A DNA stretch of 64,000 nt, taken from contig NC_081825.1 in NCBI RefSeq assembly GCF_030867095.1, positions 51,264,501-51,328,500 on the forward strand, in the 5' to 3' direction. The notes beneath the pieces are model-generated. The model saw only the letters and a program-made list of their open reading frames with translations. It searched no databases and had not been told where the DNA came from. This document shows, in pieces, positions 19,995 to 59,950 of the stretch; position 1 is the first letter of the stretch, and each line of letters starts with the position of its first letter. This stretch comes from Alligator mississippiensis (Eukaryota; Chordata; Crocodylia; Alligatoridae). Made by a program: the position numbers and the translations under genes.

Positions 19995-22010
19995 TTTTAG
20001 TTCATTTTAATGTGTGGGGTACATGGGATGTGTGGGATTGACTAAAGTGTCAATACAACACTTTCGATATATTTAAGCATTTTAGTGGTACTCAAAGTTG
20101 CCTCCATCTCTTTGAGGTTATTTTTAATAATAATGCTTGTTTATTTTTAAAAGATTTTTTCTGATTTCCAATCTCTGTCCCTTCATTTTGATATCACCTC
20201 CTGAGGCAGGTGATATAAGGACTACAATGATATTGGGAGCAGGGACATCAGGAACAACAGAGTCAGGGACCCAATGGCTGGTCTGAGACCACCTGTGGAC
20301 AGAACATGTTCCCATCCTCTACTTGTTCTTTTCTGGAGTCAGATATGGGAGAGCAAGGTGTGTTCACATCAGATCGACACCCCCATGTTACTGGGAAAAA
20401 TGTGTCATATTCCCTTTGGCAAAGGCCACCATTATGTTTCACTCAGAATTTTACTAAGCTAGGAAATAGCAGGATGAGACAAGAAAGGTGAGCAGGGGTC
20501 TTTAAAATAAATCCCTTAGTTAATCTAATTGGAATCTAGTTAGTTAGTTTAGACTAGTTAATTTAATTTGGAATATATTAGACATAACTTTTCTAGCCAA
20601 TGGAGGCCAGTAGAGCTACACTGAAAGAAAACTGGCATAACTGAGACCAGGATCAGAACCACATTCTAGTCATGTCTCAATTGCAGAATTCCTGTGCGGC
20701 ATTTAGCAAATCACTTATTTTCAATGTGCCTCAATTTTCTCAGCTTAAAATGGGGGCAGCAATACCTGCCTGCCTGACTGGGTGTTGACACCCATTCTGT
20801 ATGGTGATGAGTTTAACTGGAGGGCACCACAAAAGGGCAAAGTAAATTTGTTGTTTTTCTGGTGTTTGTTAGGTTCACTGGAGCGGTGCTAACACATTTT
20901 CATTTGCCTCAAATCTGCGTGTATTATAGTAGGAAAACTGAGAGTGATTTGCATTTTAAATCTACTACTATCTTAAGTAACTTAAAAAAATTCTGTGTTT
21001 GTATAAAAGAATTATAGCTCAGCGTTACTATATTTTACATGCTCTGGGGTTTTTCACATAGGCCCCAAATAACGTGGTTAAGCTTCATGCACTCCAAGCT
21101 GATTGGTGAATACGTTGAAGTACAGTAAACTCAGCAGCTTAACCACAGAGATATGTTTTCTTTCTCCACCGGAAACACCTGCCAAAAACATGCCCTCAAG
21201 CTGCATAGAGAAAGGCTCAGTGCTAAACTCCCATCTGTAGAATAGTTAGAAAGTGCTAGTGTGCATTTGGTAAGTAGATTTAAACTAAAACTACTTAACT
21301 GTCCTTTGTTGCCACGAACATGGCAAACAATTAAACGCTGAAGAAATGTTTGTGTATTGTATTTTTTCCAGAAGTCACCGTGCACTGCTAGTGTACTTCC
21401 ATATTGATTTTGTTCCTCTCTCAAATGATAAGATCTTGGCAAATTCACTGCAGGAGAACAGAACTGGTGACAAGTCACAGCATGAGGTTGCACCCCCGGT
21501 ATTAGTCCTGCTTACAACCAAAGCTCGTGCATAGCTGTTGCTAAGCTCAATTACAGAAACAAAGTTCATTGGTTCAGATGGGAACATATGGCTGTAGGTC
21601 TGGCTGGCAAACCCCAACAGTCCAGCCCTAGGTGCCTGCTGCAGTCTGAATCCTTCCAACGCCCGCAGGCAGCACTGGGGGCAGGAAGAAGGCTCTACCA
21701 AGATGCCTCCCTTGTTGCATCTCCAACTTGTGCTGTCGAGGCCAGGCTTGGGGCCCGCTGCGAGCCTGGCAGATCAGTGGACCATCTTCCACCTGGTTAC
21801 TGCTCTTCGGGCTGCCTGGTTCTGAGGCTTTGCACTCCCATCAGCATAGCTCACGGGATCATTGGCACTACCAGCCACCGCGTGCACCACGTTAACAGCA
21901 TCTGCTCTATTACTTCCCAGGATGCTGTCTCCAGGCCCCAGCCAGCCCCAGCTTTCAGCGGGGCAGAGACCCCGCACGGGGAGGGGGGAAGGGGGAGGGG
22001 CGGGAGCTGC
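19995..22010. other. Gene-free stretch upstream of the CpG island
   Basis: No coding exon that I can defend. GC content rises from about 21600 toward the CpG island at 22050. Overlapping open frames at 21588-22100 are products of GC-rich sequence. Local TTAGTTAGTT words lie near 20520-20570. Confidence 0.45.
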
Positions 22011-22236
22011 CAGGTGATTGGCTCAGCCTTAACAGACCACCCAATAGCAATGCCCTGGGGGCTGGATGAGACGATCCCACCAGTAGAAAGCGCGGGATGA
22101 GATAGCTCGCCCTGATTGGTTCCTTCCGGCTTGGCGGGCTATAAAAAGGGGCGGAAGCGGCGGCCGGATGCCTATTGGTGCAGGTTGCTTGCTTCCTCGC
22201 ATCAGGAACGTGGTACGTGTCGCTATCTTGGCCGCC
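22011..22236 (+). promoter_or_regulatory. CpG-island promoter with CCAAT and TATA boxes
   Basis: A CCAAT word (cacccaatag, near 22040) and three inverted ones (gattggctc near 22016, gattggttcc near 22114, ctattggtg near 22173) surround a clear TATA box, CTATAAAAAGG at about 22139-22149. CpG density jumps here and stays high to about 22560. A start site near 22170-22180 would give a 5' UTR of about 60 nt before the Kozak ATG at 22237. This layout belongs to a host-type RNA polymerase II promoter and is not something a transposon coding region would normally carry. Inference: it drives the recombinase-like gene. Confidence 0.75.
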
Positions 22237-22516
22237 ATGTCGCGCTGCAGGAGCGTCGCGACTCAGACCCGGCCCGAGTCCGAGCTCGGCCCCGGCCCCG
22301 GCCCCGGAGCGCCCTTCTGGGAGCTGCTGAGGCTGCTGTCCCGGGAGCCCGGCATGGGCTGGCTCCGCGCCGTGCTGGCCGGGCGGGGAGCGGCCGAGGG
22401 CGGCCGGGCCCGGGCAGAGCCCGGCGGGAGCGGCTCGGACGGGCCCGGCGCCTCGAGCGAGGGCGGCCCGGTTGGGCCTGGGGCCGGAGACGCCGCCGCG
22501 TCGTCGGCTGCTGTCG
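22237..22516 (+). CDS. Recombinase-like gene, coding exon 1
   Basis: 280 nt, very high CpG, encoding a leader that starts MSRCRSVATQTRPESE and then becomes Gly/Pro/Ala-rich. It has no similarity to the recombinase domain and was probably recruited with the promoter. An upstream in-frame ATG at 22168 would add 23 residues but has a weaker context and lies at the expected transcription start, so I prefer 22237. Confidence 0.7.
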
Positions 22517-24563
22517 GTGAGTGCGGGCCCCGCTAGAGCGGGGCGGGCGGGAGGAGTCAGGTCCGGCCTCGCGTGTCGCCCCCCGGCGTCCCTGGGGAAG
22601 GGGCGGGAGGCCGGGGCAGCCTTGCGGTGTGTCTGCAGCCCGGCTTTGTACGGGGTGGTTGGGATAGGGCTGAGCCGCCGCAGGCAGGGTCTGGACGGGC
22701 TGCCCTCGCCAGGGCCCAGCCCTGCTTCTCTGCCGATGAGGCAGGCGCCCTTTACGGAAGGAACTCGGTACTTTCTTTCATTCCCGAAGTTTAAAATGGG
22801 CTTAAAAGTTTAAGGCTCTGACAGCCAGCCCCAGACTTGACCTCCGGGGTTGGCCTTGCCTGCAGGCTCTGGTCCCTCAGATAGTTCCCAGACCCCCTCC
22901 CTCTTCCAGCCTGTAGCTCTACCTGCAGGTGGGCTTCAAAACCCTGCAACTTAAGGGTTGTTGTGATTTAGTATACTAAACGGCACTGTTGTCCTATTGG
23001 TCAGTTGGCTTTTGTTCTGGGACCTAAGCTTGCATGAGCTAGTGGGTTGTATATAACACTCCCTTTCTAGAGAATGGGTTGGCCCGGAGTTTCCTGGGTT
23101 TAGTCGCTGGGTGCGGTCAGTTTTAGCCTTTGCGCTGCTTAAGCTGTTTTTCTGGTGTCCACCTGGGACTTACCCTACATGCCACCCTGCATGCGTGGAA
23201 ATGACAACGACAAGATGTAGTCTTGAAAGGAATGTTTGGCTGCATGTAACTGGATCCAGTGATTTAAGAATTTATTTTTTTGCAAGCAGTTCCTGTGCCG
23301 GAGGGGACTGACTTTTTTTTTTTAAGCAGTGGCGGTCAACATTTTTAGACTCAAGGCACCCCAACATAACTTGCATATTGAGCAGCACCCCATTTCAGAA
23401 ATGCACGTATTGCAGTGCTTGCCTTTTTGCAGGGGGGCTGAGCAGCGAGAGTAGGGAAACAGTTGTGCAGGGAGAGCTTGAGCCTGCCTTTATCTACTTA
23501 TTTCCTCACACTTGCTGTGGTGTCCTGATTTAGAATTACTGCTTTAGGCATATGACATTTTGGACAGACTAACAAGTTGAGTCATAAGTTTTACTCTTGC
23601 TAAACATTAACCTGCTATCTATTTATTTTTGCTACAGGAAGTGTTATTGGAGATGGGGCTGAGAAGAATCCATTAGGCCCTTGGCCTCTGAAGACCTTGG
23701 ACTTGTTGGAGCATTCGGTAGATGTAAGAATGTGGCAAGCCTACCATACAGGCCTGGTAAAGTTTCTTGCCTTCAGAGAAAACATGGGAATGCCTCCAGA
23801 ATGGCCAATTCCACCGTATCAAAGTAGAGGATTTGTGGTGGCTATGGAGTCCCTAGGCTTACCTTCACCAAAAATACTGATGTACTTGGCAGCACTCTCC
23901 TATCTCTCCAAATTGACAGGTCATACTGATCCTCTTGAAGACTTTGTAAACAGGCATATGGTGGTAGCATTGCGTCAGAGGGATGATGCTCCAAGGGGTG
24001 GTGCTGCTCCTATAACCATTGAGGTCTTGCGATCAATCTTGGGATCTGTGGAGTCTGTTTGCAGCTCACAGTACGAGTGTTTACTTTTTCGTGCTGTATT
24101 TACTGTGGCATTCTTTGGAGCACTTCGGGTGCAGGAAATGGTGGCAGAGCATCAGAACTGGGCACAGCCAGAGCTTTTGTTCCTGAGTGATCTGCAGCTG
24201 ACGGAAGAGAGAGCAAACCTTCAATTACATACATCCTTCCTGGGTCAAGAAAGATTTTCGATTTCTCTTGGACTATGTGGAGAGACCTGGGTATGCCCTG
24301 TTGAAGCACTCTGGAACTATGTGGCAGCTAGGCCACGCGGGGAAGGACCTCTCTTTGTTCATTCTGAAGGTATACCTCTAACAAAGAGACGGTTCTTGGC
24401 TGTCTTCCGTTCTTCTTTAAGGCTACTTGGCCTTCGTTCAGAGTGCTATGGTGCCCATTCCTTCTGGTTGGGAACTACTGTAACACTAATAAGAAGTGGA
24501 TACTCTGAGGAAGATGTTATGCGGCTAGCAAGATGGCCTTGTAAGATCCTTGGAAGGACATAA
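22237..24563 (+). CDS. Tyrosine-recombinase-like gene, two exons, probably domesticated
   Basis: Predicted join(22237..22516, 23638..24563), 401 aa. The ATG sits in a perfect Kozak context (GCCGCCATG). The donor GTGAGT and acceptor TTGCTACAG keep one frame across the intron (phase 1). Residues 1-93 are a Gly/Pro/Ala-rich, GC-rich leader. From about residue 114 comes an integrase-fold protein: an N-terminal SAM-like helical domain (about 114-210) and a catalytic-type domain (about 218-395) with AFFGALRVQEMV, CPVEALWNYV and GAHSFWLG. R257, H367 and W393 fit the family's first Arg, box-II His and His/Trp. The box-II Arg position is Trp370, no Lys is seen in the beta-hairpin, and there is no terminal Tyr before the stop. 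It should therefore be unable to cut DNA as in the active family but may still fold or bind. Closest relatives by eye are the XerD-like recombinases of DIRS/Crypton-type elements. Function unknown. Confidence 0.75.
23326..23546. mobile_element. hAT-like MITE remnant in the recombinase-gene intron
   Basis: The left end CAGTGGCGGTCAACATTTTT and the phrase 'ctcaaggcacccc' match the general pattern of hAT-derived repeats (CAGTGG..CAACC..GGCACCC). The right end 'gtggtgtcctgatttagaattactg' is a diverged inverse. No target duplication is clear. Confidence 0.4.
23638..24563 (+). CDS. Recombinase-like gene, coding exon 2 (integrase fold)
   Basis: One uninterrupted 926-nt exon ending in TAA at 24561-24563. 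Base composition is close to the local average and lacks the CpG richness of exon 1. No stop interrupts the long domain, which suggests selection or recent origin. A good donor word, T|GTAAGA, lies at 24540/24541 just after the RLARWP residues, so an isoform skipping the last eight residues is possible (see findings). Confidence 0.75.
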
Positions 24564-25160: not shown

Positions 25161-25166
25161 AATAAA
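25161..25166 (+). terminator. Candidate polyadenylation signal AATAAA
   Basis: Canonical hexamer about 600 nt after the stop of the unspliced form of the recombinase-like gene. This is a typical distance for a vertebrate 3' UTR, but no transcript evidence is available here. Confidence 0.4.
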
Positions 25167-25445: not shown

Positions 25446-25451
25446 AATAAA
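25446..25451 (+). terminator. Second candidate polyadenylation signal AATAAA
   Basis: Lies about 120 nt after the strong acceptor at 25326, where the signal of a small alternative terminal exon would be expected. Confidence 0.35.
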
Positions 25452-50028: not shown

Positions 50029-53000
50029 GTAAGAGCATTTTTCAGAAGCAAAGTACCACACCAAGGCTTCCTTTACACCAAGAATCTGATCCTGCCTCCT
50101 TTCATGTATCCACTGCCTTCATGGTTTGAAGCATACAAAACTTAAAGTTCAGTATCAGTGGATCCTCTTCTATGTTTTGATTTGTATTATCTCATTAATG
50201 TATAAATATTACAATGGTTTAACTGCTTTTTGATCATGCATTGTCAAATCTAAATGCCCTCGGGGTTGTTTCAATATAGTAGGAGTTTTTTCTTAATTAC
50301 ACTAATGGAGTTAGTCCAGAAAGTTGCCAAGAAAGCAAAATTGGAAGTACCCTAAAATACTTTTTGCCTACAATGTGTAGATTGACATTTGGATAGGCCA
50401 TACATTTGTTAGCATTCTTGTCCCTTGATTTTTTTTAAATCAAAGAATCCATTAAATGATAACGTAGTACAATTGAGAGAAATTGTATCGCACAAATCAT
50501 GCTGGCACAGTAAAGGCATTATTTTAAAGAGTTTGTCAGTGGATTAGCTGGTTAAAAGAAAGCAGGATGGATAATGGAATTTTCTTTTAAATATATTGTT
50601 TGAAAAACATTTCTAAAATTCACTTGAAAATAAATTATTTTTAATGCATTTCATAATTATGTAACCATCTCTACACATCAGTCAAATAATGAACAAAATT
50701 CATCTCAAGTTTGTTGAGCAAAAACAGTATAATTATTGTATTGGGTGATTTACGAGTAGTCTTTGACTGTTTACTAGAAAGCAGGAGTAGAAGTTAGTCT
50801 TTCTGTTTCTAGCTCAGCAAGTATGTAATTTAATCTCTCTGCACTTTATTTTCCCTCATACATAAAATAGGAATAATTATATATATCTTCATATGTAAAG
50901 ACTTCACAAGGCATGGATGCTGTAGTAGGGCAAAGTGTAATACAATGCGAGTGTGAAACACTTATTAGTAATATCTACTTAGTTTCTACAAATTAATGAC
51001 CTTCTCATTTGCATCATCTCACCAGCTTTACTACATATAGTTTTTCTAGATTAGATAGTATTATATACACTATATTATATCTGGTTGGCAGCATGTAAAA
51101 GTATTAGGTACTGTTTGGAGTTCTGGACACAGTACGCTTTTTCTGATATTGCGCAGTGCTTATTTGGTATACTGAATAGACTTATTTTATATAGCTGTAG
51201 AATCAGCACATGGAAAATATGCTCAGATGCTGTTTAATGAACTGTTTGAAGACTATTCAAATGCTCTAAGACCAGTGGAAGATACAGATACAGTACTGAA
51301 TGTTACTCTTCAGATCACATTGTCCCAAATTAAAGATATGGTGAGTAGCAAGACAGTTCTATATTCTAGACATACACAAGTCTATTGGTTGTAAGCTGTA
51401 GAACTGCATGAGTTTCAGAATTTAAGATTTCACATTTTCCTTTGAAGTGAGAACATTTTACATTTTCCTATAATAACTTTAGCAATGTTTTCTCACAGGT
51501 TTTATGTTCTCCTGTTTCTAATATATACTTGTCCATTTACAACATACCTGTAGCTAGTTTACAAATCACTAGACTTTAGTAAATAATGACTGGATATTGA
51601 ATATTTCTGCCTTAAAGCATTTCTGATTTGTCCCATTAAACTGATCCAACCTCCCCCCCCCCCGATTTCTTTTTTTACCCCTATGTCTTACCAGTTGTTT
51701 TCCAGAAGTAGTATTAAAGGTGGTAACTAGTTTCTAAAATCACTATTTCAGCCCTCAGATAACTTTGCCAGATTTTACTTTCAAGGCAATGGAGAATATA
51801 TGTGCATAGAGTGGTGACAATTACAGGTGATTAAATTCTAAACTAACGTGCACATACCATACCAGAGTCTCCCAAAACTTTCAGAGACTTCATTGTAAAT
51901 GATAGGTAATTGGTACCTCTTACATGGTAGCATAGATTTCTTGAGCTACAGAAGATATATTCACCTTCTGAATCAAGTGAACTTGACCTGAATCAAAAGT
52001 GCATTATTGTTGAGTAACGAATTAGAAACATTTATAAATATTATCTTTCTTTGTAGGATGAAAGAAACCAAATTTTGATTGCCTACTTATGGATTCGACA
52101 AAGCTGGTATGATGCATATCTCAAGTGGGACAAAGACAAATATGATGGGTTAGATTCTATCAGGATTCCTAGCAATCTCGTCTGGAGACCAGATATTGTC
52201 CTGTATAACAAGTAAGTATAATTGAAAGTTTGTTAACTTAGCTGCAGCAGTAGTTTGGATGGAGTAATTCTAAAGCAGGAATAGTTGTAGTTGCCTTGAG
52301 ATGAGGGTCAGCCATAGGTATGGGCAACTGAATCCTGATCTCCTGGCTGTTCCCAGAACAGTGAGATCATCTTTCTTCACTCAGGACTCAGAGGTTTGTG
52401 GCTGCTGCTACTTTGAGCTTTTATAGTCATGTCAGGAATACAGTGCGATTCCTCCCCACTTTTCTAAAAGCAGAGCCCTTTTTGCTTGAGCTGCAAGATG
52501 ATTTCAAGTAGCAACACTAGTCTTTGGCACATTGCTGAGTAATTCTGAATCCACCCGAAGATGGAATCTGTATGTAATTGCTAGTTCATTACAACATTAA
52601 ATATAAGTCAATGAAGTGAATTTAGTATTCTGAATGTGTGGCCTATATGCTATTCTAATTTAGCAGCCTTTACTGTTGTTGTTATATCATCTTTTTAGGG
52701 CCGATGATGCCTTTTCAGACCCAGTGAATACAAATGTTGTGTTGAGATATGATGGAAAAATTACTTGGGATGCACCAGCTATAACAAAGAGCTCATGTGT
52801 GGTAGATGTGTCTTATTTTCCCTTTGATAGTCAGCAGTGCAACCTTACTTTTGGTTCCTGGACCTACAATGGTAATCAGGTTGACATCATTAATGCATTG
52901 GACAGTGGAGACCTATCTGACTTTATAGAAGATGTGGAGTGGGAGATTCATGGCATGCCAGCTATTAAGAATGTAATTATGTATGGCTGTTGCTCTGAGC

Positions 53001-54300
53001 CTTATCCAGATGTTACATTCACACTCATTTTGAAGAGGAAGTCTTCCTTTTATATATTTAACCTGCTGCTCCCTTGTGTTTTGATATCTTTTTTGGCTCC
53101 ACTGGGATTCTACCTTCCTGCTGACTCTGGAGAAAAAGTGTCTTTAGGTGTTACAGTTCTCCTAGCATTGACTGTATTTCAGCTAATGGTTGCAGAAATC
53201 ATGCCTCCTTCAGAAAATGTACCCTTGATAGGTGAGTATATCATGCTTTTATCATGGCTTATTCATAGTAGAGGGGTTTTTTTGTGTCAGGAAAACAACA
53301 TATCACTAACTGAACCTGGAAAGATAAATGTTGTGACGCAAGTTTCTAAAACCCTGTGTAGTACTTAATGTGAATTGAACTTGTAAAAATATATTGACAT
53401 TCTGTGAGAAGATTATTTTGCACTGAGTGGTAATACATGATTATGCTAAGAACCAAGCTGTAATGTACATAAAGTTAAACACACAGTCAGTTGTATTGTT
53501 TCAAGGTGTGGTCCCAGCATATATACAAACTATTCCAGGCCAGTTATTGACTGGGAAATGCCATAGTGCACTCAGAACTGGTTTAGTGATTCATTAGATT
53601 GAAATGTGATGTCTGGAAAATGAGAAGTATATGGTGAGTTGTAAATTGGAAGTGAAGGGGGAGTTTACCTGCAGGGGGAGAGCCCTTTTTATACAATATG
53701 GAACTGGTATGCTGCAAAGGACTTCTTGTTATGCTGCAGATGCACATACCTACTTCCCATAAATTATACAGTCCACACTCAGGCTATAACTAAGCAGTCG
53801 GATTTAAGAAACTGAAGGCCTGTTAGGCTCTATAGAAACTGAGGATGCCTTCAGTACAAACTACAGTACCTTGAAGTACCAGGACTCCTCCTCTTGATTC
53901 ATAGCTGATGACAAAATAAATACTAATATGTGCCTTCCCCCCCTGCACAACTATGCTGCCCCTCAGCTCCTCCTCCTGATACTCTTTGCTTCCTGCACCC
54001 TTATATAGTCCTTCCTGCTTAATTCCCAACTACAGACATACTCAGGGTCACTTGCATCTGTGGAAGTCCTGTTTTCCATTTGCTTGTATGGGCTCCATAG
54101 ACAGATAAGTCTTATAACTCATATGAAGTAAAGCATCAGGAAGAGGTGTTTCAAATTTGATGTGTATATGTACTGACATTGTGAATTTTTAGGGACTGAA
54201 TCTGGAAATTCAATTTTTTCTATTTTAAAGTTTGTAATTTTAAATTTAATTTTTATTTTAATTATATATAAATTTAAAATTAAATTCTCACACTTTTTCA

Positions 54301-54387
<87 letters not shown>

Positions 54388-57300
54388 AATATTCACACTC
54401 CCAAACCCCTAGTTTAAAAAATGTGTGTGTGTGTGTATGTATACATTTTTTAAATGAGAGGTTTCATAGTTTCATAGTAGGTAGGTAGGGTTGGAAGAGA
54501 CCTGAGCAGATCATCAAGTCTGACCCCATGCCATGGGCAGGAAAGAATGCTGGGGTCAAACAACCCTGGCTAGGTGATCATCTAGCCTCCTTTTGAAGAG
54601 CCCCAGGGTAGAAGCAAGCACTACTTCCCTTGGAAGTTGGTTCCAGATCCTAGCCTTCCTGACTGTGAAGTAGTGCCTCCTGATATCTAGCCTGAATCTA
54701 CTCCTGGTCAACTTAGGGCTGTTATTCCTCGTTACTCCCAGTAGTGCTCGGGGTAACAGGGACTCTCCCATAGCCTGCTGGTCTCCCTTGTCCAGTTTGT
54801 AGACTGCCACCAGATCCCCTCTCCAGAAGCCTTCTCTTGTGGAGGCTGAACAGGTTCAAGTCCAATAGCCTCTGCTCGTAGGGTCTGCCTTACTGCCCCC
54901 TGATCATGTGAGTGGCCCTCCTCTGGACCCTCTCCATGTTGTGCACATCCCTCCTGAAGTGCAGCACCCAGAAATGGACACAGTACTCCAGCTGTGGCCT
55001 GACCAGTGTCGCCTAGAGGGGGAGGATCACCTCCTTGGACCTGCTCGTAATGCATCTATGGATGCATGACAAAGTGCGGTTAGCCTTCCTGACTGCATCC
55101 TCACATTGTCGGCCCATGTTCATCTTGGAGTTAATAATGACACCAAGATCCTTTTCTGCCTCTGTGCTGACGAGAAGGGAGTTCCCCAGCCTGTAGGTAT
55201 GCTGCTGGTTCTTTTTCCCCAGGTGTAGTACCTTATAGATTCATAGATTCATAGATGTTAGGGTCGGAAGGGACCTCAATAGATCATCGAGTCCGACCCC
55301 CTGCATAAGCAGGAAAGAGTGCTGGGTCTAGATGACCCCAGCTAGATACTCATCTAACCTCCTCTTGAAGACCCCCAGGGTAGGGGAGAGCACCACCTCC
55401 CTTGGGAGCCCATTCCAGACCTTAGCCACTCTAACTGTGAAGAAGTTCTTCCTAATGTCCAATCTAAATCTGCTCTCTGCTAGCTTGTGGCCATTATTTC
55501 TTGTAACCCCTGGGGGCGCCTTGGTGAATAAAACCTCACCGATTCCCTTCTGTGCCCCCATGATGAACTTATAGGCAGCCACAAGGTCGCCTCTCAACCT
55601 TCTCTTGCGGAGGCTGAAGAGGTCCAGGTGCCCCAGTCTCTCCTCGTAGGGCTTGGCCTGCAAGCCCTTAACCATACGAGTGGCCCTTCTCTGGACTCTC
55701 TCCAGGTTATCCACATCCCTCTTGAAGTGTGGCGCCCAAAACTGCACACAGTACTCCAACTGTGGTCTGACTAGTGCCCGATAGAGGGGAAGTATCACCT
55801 CCTTGGACCTATTTGTCATGCATCTGCTGATGCATGATAAAGTGCCATTAGCTTTTCTGATGGCTTTGTCACATTGCCGACTCATGTTCATCTTGGAGTC
55901 CACTAGGACTCCAAGATCCCTTTCTGCTTCCATTCCACCAAGCAGGTCATTTCCTAGGCAGTAGGTATGCTGGACATTTTTCCTCCCTAGGTGCAGCACT
56001 TTGCATTTCTCCTTGTTGAATTGCATTCTGTTGTTTTCTGCCCATATGTCCAACCTGTCCAGGTCTGATTGTAGTTGTTCCCTGCCCTCCAGCATGTCCA
56101 CTTCTCCCCACAGTTCTGTGTCATCCACAAACTTGGACAGAGTACCCTTCACTCCCTCGTCCAAGTCGCTGATGAAGATATTGAAGGGTATCGGTCCAAG
56201 GACCGAGCCCTGCGGGACCCCACTGCCCACACGCTTCCAAGTCGATACCGACCCATCCACTACGACTCTCTGGGTGCGACCCTCTAGCCAATTCGCCACC
56301 CACCGGACTGTGTAGTCATCTAAGTCACAGCCTCTTAACTTGTTTACCAGTATGGTGTGGGATACCGTATCGAAGGCCTTCCTGAAGTCTAGGTATACGA
56401 CATCAACTCCTACTCCTGTGTCCAGGCGTTTTGTAACTCGGTCATAAAAAGAGACTAGATTAGTCAGGCATGATCTACCTGCTACGAACCCGTGCTGGTT
56501 TCCCTTCAGCATAATTTGTCCTGCTGGGCTCTCGCAAATGTGAGCCTTGATAATTTTTTCAAAGACTTTGCCTAGGATGGAGGTGAGACTGACTGGCCTA
56601 TAGTTGCCTGGGTCCTCCTTCCTCCCCTTCTTGAAAATGGGGTCCACACTGGCCCTTTTCAAGTCCTCCGGGACCTGGCCCATGCGCCACGAGTGTTCAA
56701 ATATTACCGCCAGTGGCTGTGCAGTGACATCAGCCAGTGCCTTCAGTACCCTCGGATGGAGCTCATCCGGGCCTGCCGACTTAAAGGCATCCAGTTCCTC
56801 CAAGTGACTCTGCACCATCTCAGGGTCTACGGATGGCAGTCTGGTGCCTTGCTGCTGCCTCTCTACAATCCCAGTGAGAGCCTTGTCCTGCCCCTCACTT
56901 AGGAAAACTGAGGCAAAGAACTCATTGAGGAGTTCAGCGTTGTCCCCCCTGTCCGTCACCAATTGCTTCTGCCCATTTAGTAGGGGTCCTATTCCACCCT
57001 GGGCCTTCCTTTTACTCCCTATGTATCTAAATAACAATTTTTTGTTATCCTTTACTTGGGATGCCATCCTCAGCTCCATGGTAGCTTTGGCCCGTCTAAC
57101 TGCCTCCCTACAAGTGTAAGCAGAGGAGGTATACTCCTCTTTGGTAATCTCTCCCTGTGTTTAAATAATCAGCTGGCCATCCTCAGCTCCATGGTAGCTT
57201 TGGCCCGTCTAACTGACTCCCTACAAGTGCGAGCAGAGGAGGTATACTCCTCTTTTGGTAATCTCTCCCCCAGGATTCAATACTGACCTTGCACTTGTCA

Positions 57301-59950
57301 GTATTGAATCCCATCCTGTTCTCATCTGCCCACCCCTGTAATCTGTCTAGATCTAGTTGCAGCCTGTCCCTCTCCTCCAGTGTGCCCACTTCTCCCCACA
57401 TTTTAGTGTCATCCGCAAATTTGAACAAGGTGCTTTTCACTCCCTCATCCAAGTCGCTGATGAAGATGTTGAACAGTGTGAGCCCAAGGACACAGCCCTG
57501 GGGGACCCCACTGCCCACATACCTCCAGTTCAAAAAAGACCCATCCAGCACCACTGTCTGGGTGAGGCCCTCTAGCCAATTTGTGACCCATCTGACTGTG
57601 TAGGCATTGACGCCACAGCCGCCTAATTTCTTAATGAGAACAGTGTCGAAGGCCTTCCTAAAGTCCAGAAAGACTACGTCCACCACGACACCTGCATCCA
57701 AGGATTTTGTTACCTGGTCATAGAAGGCAATCAGGTTGGTCTGACAGGACCTGCCTCTAATGAACCCATGTTGGTTGCCCCTAAGCATAATCTCCCCTGC
57801 TGGCCCCTCGTGGACATGCGCCATGATAATTCTTTCAAAAAGCTTACCCAGGACTGAGGTAAGACTAACAGACCTGTAGTTTCCTGGGTCCTCCTTCCTC
57901 CCTTTTCTGAAAATAGGAACCACATTGGCCCTTTTCCAGTCCTCCGGCACCTTGCCAGAGCACCATGAGTGCTCGTAAAGCTGTGCCAGGGGTTCCACAA
58001 TGACCTCTGCTAATTCCCTCAGCACTCTGGGGTGGAGATCATCAGGACCTGCTTACTTGAACACATCTAGACCCACCAGAAGTTCCCTGACTAGGTCCTC
58101 AATGACCCTGGGCCTGGCTGTGCCTCCCCTGGGTCCGTTGGGGATCCCAGTGGGGGGGATGCCCCAATCCCTGCTCAAAAAGATGGAGGCAAAGAAATTG
58201 TTAAAGAGGTTAACTTTGTTGTCTCGTGCGGCCACCAGATTTCCTAGTGTATCCTGCAGAGGCCCTATGTTACCCAGTACCTTCTTTTTACCTGCTATGT
58301 GTTCAAAAAAGGACTTCTTGTTATCCTTGATCTGGGTCGCTAGTCCCAGTTCCATCTCTGCCTTAGGCTTCCTAACAGCCCCCCTACAATCTCAGGCAGT
58401 GGAAGTATAATCCTCCTTGGTGATGGCCCCTCCCTTCCATTGGGTGTACACCTCCTTTTTAGCTTTGAGACGTTAGTGGATGCTTTTGGTGAGCACTCCT
58501 GCGCTCTTTGATCCATGTGGGGATTGTCATCCTTTGGGCTTTGAGGATCATCTCCTTAAGGAGCGACCACTCTTCCTAGACTCCCAACTCCCCTCCCCTC
58601 CCCTCCCCTCTGGGACCTCAGTGCCTCCCCAACTAGTCTCCTTACCTCATTGAAATCCACCCTCCTGAAGTCTAGGGCTATTGCCTTGCCACAGGCTTTT
58701 GACACCCTGCGCTGGATGGTGAATTCCAGTAGGCGATGATCACTATTGCCCAGGTGGTCGAGAACCCGCAGTCCACTCACTAGGTCATTGCCTGTGGCCA
58801 GGACCAGGTCCAACAAGGCATTTCCCCTGGTGGGACTGTGCACCTCCTGGGTTAGATGGAGGTTCTGTAACTCAGCTAGGAACCTACGTGAGCGGTCAGA
58901 CCTGGCTGACTGCTCTTCCCAGCAGATGTCTGAATAGTTTAGGTCACCCATGATGACTATGTCCCTTGACTTAACTGCCTCCGCAAGCTGACCTGAGAAT
59001 TCCCAGTCCAGCTCTTCCCCCTGGTTGGGTGGCCTGTAGTCAACCCCTACCGTTAAGTCCCTTCCCCCCTGGCCCCCTTGTATATGGACCCAGAGCACTT
59101 CAGTGTGCCCCTCCTCTGACCCAGTGCTGTCAGAATGTGGGAGTGTGGGAGTGTGAAGAATATTGACCTTGATTATTCAATAAAGATTCTTATCCAAATG
59201 GTATAATTATAGTAATGATCTGTGTGAGGTCTTTATTTTAATAAATTAATTCCTTTTTAAGTGGCAAATTTAGTGCAAATAGCTTCTTACCATTATGTTT
59301 AGCTTCATGTTGTGTTTTTTCATTTCTGGAGAAGATGATTTAACATTAATATTTTTAATACACATTCACTTTTGAACATTACAGGCAAATATTACATAGC
59401 AACTATGACGATGATCACTGCCTCCACTGCACTGACAATCATCATAATGAATATTCATCACTGTGGGTCAGAAGCAAAACCTGTTCCACAATGGGCCAGG
59501 GTGGTTATTTTGGACTATATGTCAAAAATTTTTTTTGTTTATGATGTGGGTGAGAATTGCATAAGTCCACAAAGGGAGAAAGATCAAGAACATAAATTAA
59601 GGAAGGATAAGTATCAGAAAAGACAAGACAGATATGAAGAGGTAAGGAATCAACTTTCCAGGAACAGAAACAATGACAGTGACCTCAAAAAGCAGCTGAA
59701 TGGACCTATAAATAAAAGCTATGGAATTCAGTGTGAAAATGCAAAAGATGGTGTCAACTGCTGTTCTTGCTATAAAATCCTGATAAAAAATATTGAGTAT
59801 ATTGCTAATTGTGTTAGAGACCACAAAGCAAACCGTGCTAAAGGGATTGAGTGGAAAAAAGTAGCAAAAGTGATGGACAGATTCTTCATGTGGATTTTTT
59901 TTATTATGGTGTTTTTTATGAGCATGCTGATCATTGGTAAAGCAGTTTAA
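49959..59950 (+). CDS. CHRNA9: Nicotinic acetylcholine receptor subunit alpha-9 (complete)
   Basis: join(49959..50028, 51201..51340, 52057..52211, 52699..53231, 59385..59950), predicted 487 aa; every junction is GT-AG and in phase. Alpha-9 forms homomeric or alpha9/alpha10 pentameric cation channels, best known for cholinergic efferent input to hair cells. Visible: signal peptide (1-23), glycosylation sites in NVT and N170-LT, Cys-loop C155-C169, the vicinal pair C219-C220 that marks alpha subunits, transmembrane segments near 240-261, 268-290 (pore helix [17 protein letters not shown]), 303-325 and 465-487. [21 protein letters not shown] and [10 protein letters not shown] agree with vertebrate alpha-9 and less well with alpha-10. 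The human protein has 479 aa; the difference lies mainly in the cytoplasmic M3-M4 loop, rich in Lys/Arg/Asp here. No damage seen. Confidence 0.97.
51201..51340 (+). CDS. CHRNA9: CHRNA9 exon 2
   Basis: 140 nt after acceptor ATAGCTGTAG. Encodes the mature N-terminus through [11 protein letters not shown] and [15 protein letters not shown]. Donor ATG|GTGAGT. Confidence 0.95.
52057..52211 (+). CDS. CHRNA9: CHRNA9 exon 3
   Basis: 155 nt after acceptor CTTTGTAG. Encodes [17 protein letters not shown] through WRPDIVLYN (ligand-binding loop region). Donor AA|GTAAGT. Confidence 0.95.
52699..53231 (+). CDS. CHRNA9: CHRNA9 exon 4
   Basis: 533 nt after acceptor CTTTTTAG. Encodes the rest of the extracellular domain (Cys-loop, vicinal cysteines), M1 and the pore-lining M2, ending at ENVPLI. 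Donor ATAG|GTGAGT. Reading on past the donor gives only intron sequence. Confidence 0.97.
54301..54446. repeat. Compound microsatellite (ATCT)n(AC)n(AT)n
   Basis: About 13 ATCT units (54301-54353), then (AC)n to about 54371, (AT)n to about 54387, and a TG/AT tract near 54421-54446. It lies in the last CHRNA9 intron just before the CR1 cluster. Confidence 0.9.
55235..57285 (-). mobile_element. CR1 LINE, young copy nested in the older CR1 (antisense)
   Basis: Minus-strand, 5'-truncated. One unbroken 583-aa frame (57079-55328) runs from the region before the RT palm to the natural ORF2 stop: [49 protein letters not shown] at the catalytic FADD position, [17 protein letters not shown] and [13 protein letters not shown]. 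The endonuclease is missing. The 3' UTR ends with ATTCATAG repeats at 55235. ACCTT flanks the insert (55230-55234, 57286-57290), so it landed within the older CR1. Its 5' end is rearranged (see findings). The catalytic box reads VDD, so the product would probably be impaired despite the open frame. Confidence 0.92.
57063..57270. repeat. Tandem duplication of ~95 bp at the 5' end of the young CR1
   Basis: 57063-57156 and 57176-57270 are near-identical (few substitutions, one extra T), separated by a 19-nt spacer at 57157-57175 that is not CR1-like. Confidence 0.9.
57273..57311. repeat. 14-bp inverted repeat at the nested CR1 junction
   Basis: GGATTCAATACTGA (57273-57286) and TCAGTATTGAATCC (57298-57311) pair perfectly around an 11-nt loop. 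The right arm belongs to the older CR1; the left arm is extra sequence at the 5' edge of the younger insert. Confidence 0.9.
59385..59950 (+). CDS. CHRNA9: CHRNA9 exon 5 (terminal)
   Basis: 566 nt after acceptor AACATTACAG. Encodes M3 ([17 protein letters not shown]), the cytoplasmic loop with its amphipathic pre-M4 helix ([18 protein letters not shown]), M4 ([17 protein letters not shown]) and the stop at 59948-59950. Confidence 0.97.

Follow-up and report, generated by a model that had tools for sequence, protein, structure and literature searches.

Is the two-exon locus that lies between RHOH- and CHRNA9-type genes a host gene made from a tyrosine recombinase, or is it the remains of a mobile element whose reading frame happens to be open? 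The question arises from a sequence-only reading of the window (the whole 64-kb stretch of DNA analysed, G000:C2:51264501-51328500), which proposed that a recombinase domain with relatives of DIRS and Crypton type had been captured behind a host promoter and had become a new gene. Our analysis, in which 2.35 Gb of genome in 195 contigs was searched, leads us to suggest that the locus is an ancient domesticated gene derived from a tyrosine recombinase, with two predicted exons, and we would put the probability of this at roughly two in three. The features on which the argument depends are collected in Table 1.

Table 1. Predicted features of the locus, numbered by position in the window.
Feature	Position	Strand	Basis or remark
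CpG island, putative promoter and first exon	21941..22860	.	GC 0.70, CpG observed/expected 0.80
Four CCAAT/ATTGG boxes: 22017 (ATTGG), 22041 (CCAAT), 22115 and 22174 (ATTGG)	22017..22178	+	consensus match only
TATAAA	22140	+	consensus match only
Predicted exon 1, coding part, Gly/Pro/Ala-rich leader	22237..22516	+	93 codons from ATG plus 1 base
Predicted GT-AG intron, phase 1	22517..23637	+	splice scores; about 1.1 kb
Predicted exon 2, tyrosine-recombinase domain without Lys, second Arg and Tyr	23638..24563	+	stop 24561-24563
First catalytic Arg, kept (ALRVQE)	24126..24128	+	integrase alignment
Lys position (SK in integrases), Phe here	24237..24239	+	integrase alignment
Box II HSFW (for HxxR): His kept (24456), second Arg replaced by Trp (24465)	24456..24467	+	integrase alignment
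Domain end: Trp (24534) at box III His/Trp position; frame ends without nucleophilic Tyr	24534..24563	+	
AATAAA, possible polyadenylation signal	25161..25166	+	motif only

Ancestry and catalytic residues of exon 2

The tyrosine-recombinase ancestry of exon 2 is confirmed by sequence comparison. With a profile built from 10 plasmid integrases the exon reaches 52.8 bits, whereas neither its reversed sequence nor any of 200 shuffles exceeds 2.0, and hhalign aligns profile and exon with a probability of 97.7 over 252 columns (query columns 35-300, 22% identity) with the boxes in register. The match spans both the core-binding and the catalytic domains of the tyrosine recombinase superfamily. The query protein, P0001, has 309 residues counted from 23634, the first of them intron-derived; the profile was made from 10 annotated plasmid records (L046-L055) of 220, themselves found with an XerD-like probe. 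That probe, a metazoan XerD-like composite, matches exon 2 with z 48 and E 1e-21 and on its own clears the threshold of the Pfam phage-integrase profile (27.8 versus 27.1 bits). It was composed after exon 2 had been read, so its alignments are not fully independent and serve as supporting evidence only.

The domain is divergent, since exon 2 has no match in Pfam (E up to 1, PF00589 included), NCBIfam or PHROGs, and its single match in the PDB is unrelated and weak (E 1.2). No relatives emerged from the viral contigs, where exon 2 drew three pattern-matching stretches and the XerD-like probe four, and where two back-translated motif scans gave no match; nor from tblastn against phage at E up to 10, nor from the collection of genome contigs, where the XerD-like probe drew 70 pattern-matching stretches. 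An Rfam scan of the window was likewise without a match.

Active tyrosine recombinases carry the set R-K-H-R-(H/W)-Y. In the integrase alignment exon 2 has the first R, the H and the W of this set and lacks the K, the second R and the Y; the second Arg and the C-terminal Tyr are visible in the 10 plasmid integrases, and the Lys that aligns with the Phe of exon 2 is, from what is known of the family, presumably the catalytic one. With these three residues gone the recombinase looks catalytically dead, a loss that the sequence-only reading had overlooked and that fits domestication.

Exon 2 might instead be part of a longer gene, in which a third exon restores the Tyr and with it an active recombinase. 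Such a reading can draw on a donor of moderate strength at 24541 (GTAAGA, score 5.4), which is placed just past the box III Trp in phase 1, so that T would begin the next codon. The exonic side of this donor is poor, however (CTT), and no convincing third exon emerged from the acceptors examined as far as 30 kb: 16 of them score above 5 and place a Tyr within their first 16 residues, but none leads to a recombinase-like end by eye. The second Arg, moreover, is Trp both here and in a decayed relative on another contig (described below), so activity would still be impaired even if a third exon were present. We consider this reading very improbable.

Genomic setting and predicted gene structure

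CHRNA9 is confirmed by alpha-9 as its best PDB match, and a further receptor exon is found at 59339-59947. A single-exon gene of the Ras family (by Pfam), which we take to be RHOH, lies upstream at about 31 kb from exon 1, and farther upstream is a gene that we assume, from its sequence and the gene order, to be N4BP2. Downstream, on the minus strand, is a gene with three RRMs (again by Pfam), presumably RBM47. Between two exons of CHRNA9 (52664-53368 and 59339-59950), at 55328-59176 on the minus strand, there are frames that by eye resemble a CR1-like LINE, one of them open for 610 codons.

The CpG island is the sole one within the window under the criteria applied, and a scan of 264 kb located one further CpG stretch of at least 400 bp, which overlaps a LINE-like ORF. 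Candidate TATA and CCAAT/ATTGG boxes are found inside the island, as had been described, and together they give the locus a putative host-style promoter region. The CCAAT/ATTGG cluster is unremarkable when taken alone, because three further clusters with at least four such boxes per 200 bp occur elsewhere in the window.

The ATG of exon 1 at 22237 had been credited with a perfect Kozak context, which is incorrect: the context is GCCGCCATGT, with T at +4. The exon is GC-rich and does contain the 93 codons claimed for it, together with one extra base, but the leader is only weakly supported as protein-coding. Several reading frames are open across this GC-rich stretch, so its open frame is weak evidence; codon usage, scored after training on 2001 codons from neighbouring exons, gives frame 0 no advantage (-0.28 bits/codon, versus +0.09 in frame +1); and the codon-position asymmetry is mild, being equalled in 59 of 2000 simulations.

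The predicted splice agrees with the earlier description. The donor (GTGAGT) has the top score of the region from 21.9 to 26.5 kb (8.7, the next being 8.6); across the window it ranks 38th of 3509 GT sites, and the acceptor at 23637 ranks 13th of 4386 AG sites under the matrices used for scoring. The two exons join in phase 1, and the joined frame stays open for 401 codons, giving a predicted protein of 401 residues. Exon 2 supplies 307 whole codons and part of a split Gly codon. Its description as an uninterrupted integrase-like exon is upheld both by the profile score and by the stop-to-stop frame (23604-24563), whose 319 codons were not reached by any of 1000 sequences of 1100 bp simulated with a first-order Markov model, the longest frame there having 192. 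The codon-position asymmetry of exon 2 is equalled in one of 2000 simulations, and its codon usage makes frame 0 the best of six, yet by a score of just 0.03 bits/codon. The frame has no early ATG of its own, the first Met being at 23730.

The intron contains a dispersed repeat of about 200 bp (approximately 23317-23526), to which at least 39 further copies (among the best 40 of 446 candidates) show 71-80% identity, and the intron is therefore not young. Beyond the possible polyadenylation signal of Table 1, further AATAAA motifs occur at 25446 and farther downstream.

Copy number, the decayed relic and the age of the gene

Searches with the promoter, exon 1 and exon 2 support a gene that is effectively single copy and has no element structure. 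Exon 2 finds itself intact and one decayed relic on contig C5 (all 10 candidates scored), exon 1 finds itself only (all 54 candidates scored), and the promoter joined to exon 1 finds itself only, bar one 39-base piece. With the XerD-like probe the exon 2 locus scores E 4.6e-25, and the other match (44 of 44 candidates scored) has E 0.51 and two stops. These searches score the best candidates, and very weak copies could escape them. A motif pattern gave six matches in the gene's own genome and 13 in its reversed control, which is chance level. PF00589 finds two weak places in the genome, both below the cut-off and one of them an ATF7IP-Crypton-like ORF, and the exon 2 locus is not among the 19 places listed for DUF3504 (PF12012). 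The sequence around exon 2 (22.9-26.6 kb) contains no element-like ends, just two 16-base repeats of a size expected by chance, and RT-like frames elsewhere in the window were read by eye as CR1-like LINEs. Dispersed near-identical copies with element ends had been named as the outcome that would overturn domestication; what we found was one intact copy, one relic and no ends, and in these searches the exon 2 locus shows neither the multiple copies nor the ends of a DIRS/Ngaro element.

The relic comprises 59 residues at G000:C5:20170943-20171101 (L003 4859-5102) and is 73% identical to its parent over 232 columns. It has an in-frame stop, a 6-residue gap and frame-shifting gaps of 1 and 3 bases, whereas the parent frame has no stop and no frameshift. 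The relic has the same Trp in place of the second Arg (HxxW) and the same shortened end as exon 2, and we suggest from these common defects that it was probably copied from a gene that was already dead as an enzyme. Its status as a processed pseudogene was considered and could not be proven: unrelated-looking DNA adjoins it, there is no clear poly(A) tail, and homology is clear over the 232 columns only. The gap-lenient scores of its flanks do exceed those of reversed controls (620 versus 419 and 939 versus 684), in alignments that look overextended.

The K80 distance between relic and parent is 0.319, and the differences by codon position are 17/75, 17/77 and 24/76. The corresponding dS is 0.48 and dN 0.27; a dN/dS of 0.56 would result if the parent were conserved and the relic free to change, but it is suggestive only, since a Fisher test on rounded counts (p 0.08) does not place it significantly below 1. 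Under neutral evolution with assumed rates (transitions weighted 3, indels at 8%, of which 80% shift the frame) the intact parent frame survived in 1.18% of 4000 simulated runs at 0.05 substitutions/site and in none of 4000 at each of 0.10, 0.16 and 0.32. Exon 2 was noticed for having an open frame, and the simulation for this reason gives indirect support only.

On a rival reading there is no host gene here at all: a recombinase fragment, left by a mobile element that is dying or already dead, came to lie beside an unrelated CpG island and is open by chance. The loss of catalytic residues and of the C-terminal end is what is seen in decaying elements, and the unremarkable codon usage of the leader, the barely positive score of exon 2 and the non-significant relic comparison are all compatible with decay. 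We nevertheless judge it unlikely on the following grounds: other intact copies and element ends were not found in the searches described above, the long frame without an early ATG begins right at a high-ranking acceptor, and the relic has acquired a frameshift and a stop where its parent has neither. The locus could also have persisted for long and now lack a function, its frame being open by luck.

For the domesticated gene that we prefer, the history might have run as follows. An XerD-like tyrosine recombinase, its source most likely a mobile element of eukaryotes, would have come under the CpG-island promoter between the RHOH- and CHRNA9-type genes, where the recombinase exon either gained a short leader exon or was captured by one. 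Three catalytic residues, the Lys, the second Arg and the Tyr, would have been lost while the frame stayed open, leaving no detectable mobile source in the genome. Such a gene would be transcribed, spliced and kept under purifying selection. The two-lobed recombinase clamp, most likely retained to judge by homology, may bind DNA without cutting it, in a regulatory or element-repressing role. We offer only tentatively, and with some doubt, the suggestion that the protein serves as a non-cutting DNA-binding regulator that perhaps acted first against its source element. The capture proposed at the outset fares well in its ancestry, single copy and promoter region; its DIRS/Crypton wording is imprecise, as the DUF3504 profile of Crypton-derived domains does not match.

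How novel the gene is must be judged separately. A real host gene at this place may already be annotated as an uncharacterised or xerD-like locus, which would be compatible with domestication, and we see the chances of this as even. The relic dS of 0.48 suggests an old age, from which one would expect the gene to be present in several lineages and probably to have been modelled by annotation pipelines. Against this, no report of the gene was found in the open PMC literature, which was the scope of the search, although a gene missing from the literature may still be present in annotation.

Comparison with known recombinases and domesticated genes

The plasmid integrases are homologous to exon 2 over the whole domain (52.8 bits, 22% identity), but they keep the second Arg and the Tyr. 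The recombinases of DIRS1-like and Ngaro-like retrotransposons also have a tyrosine-recombinase domain, with the boxes in the general order of tyrosine recombinases, and were likened to exon 2 by description only. For DIRS1 the reported motif is HSTR, which 13 of 28 elements keep (PMC3266345); exon 2 has HSFW in its place, and the searches above yielded no such family in the genome and no element ends at the locus. The LAP2alpha domain of TMPO/ZNF451 offers a parallel in architecture, being described as one large exon that a host gene captured from a DIRS1-like element (PMC4495291), but it stems from a GAG ORF, whereas exon 2 is a recombinase. A gene of trypanosomatids derived from VIPER is reported as the domestication of a tyrosine-recombinase retroelement outside the Cryptons (PMC5146736); its host is a protist, unlike the vertebrate host of exon 2.

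The Crypton in an intron of ATF7IP is a recombinase frame that has persisted for long in the genomes of vertebrates (PMC9004415, PMC3212892). Its CPV and HSxx boxes align in register with exon 2, yet it keeps HSLR and the Tyr, and its similarity to exon 2 (z 2.0) was reached by 16 of 300 shuffles. One locus of the genome searched (L025, on G000:C4 at about 89640 kb, minus strand) has an uninterrupted ORF of 511 aa (1141-2676) that is ATF7IP-Crypton-like by the published description. Both H-x-x-R and the Tyr at the C-terminal end are present in this ORF (NHSLR...GHRSESAIRHYW), which is possibly still catalytically complete.

Closest in outcome are the Crypton-derived DUF3504 genes (KCTD1, KIAA1958, ZMYM2/3/4, QRICH1 and WOC), host genes whose recombinase domain, like exon 2, has no second Arg or Tyr; all of them are reported to have lost both residues (PMC3212892). 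Exon 2 differs from them in that it fails PF12012, is attached to no known host domain, and has similarity that is XerD-like rather than Crypton-type. Compared with five ORFs from DUF3504/Crypton places (the longest ORF per locus), exon 2 showed weak similarity, with z values of 2.0, -1.6, 0.4, 0.9 and -0.9, the value for the L045 ORF being void because of masked bases and perhaps the wrong strand. At another place (G000:C16:3332670) a 311-aa ORF matches DUF3504 on a contig other than that of the main KIAA1958-like matches; presumably it resembles a KIAA1958-like gene.

The vertebrate domestications of tyrosine recombinases described in the literature examined are of Crypton origin (PMC3212892). 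The gene studied here may be an independent, non-Crypton domestication of an XerD-like recombinase, a stand-alone gene with a CpG promoter that is older than its host's order and whose cleavage-dead DNA-binding clamp may have outlived, and perhaps helped to silence, its parent element; we regard this as a real possibility that falls somewhat short of even odds. If it is true, a separate XerD-like case without the second Arg and Tyr would suggest that the fold is retained time and again as a DNA-binding module that does not cut, and a single-copy gene would allow that role to be tested directly.
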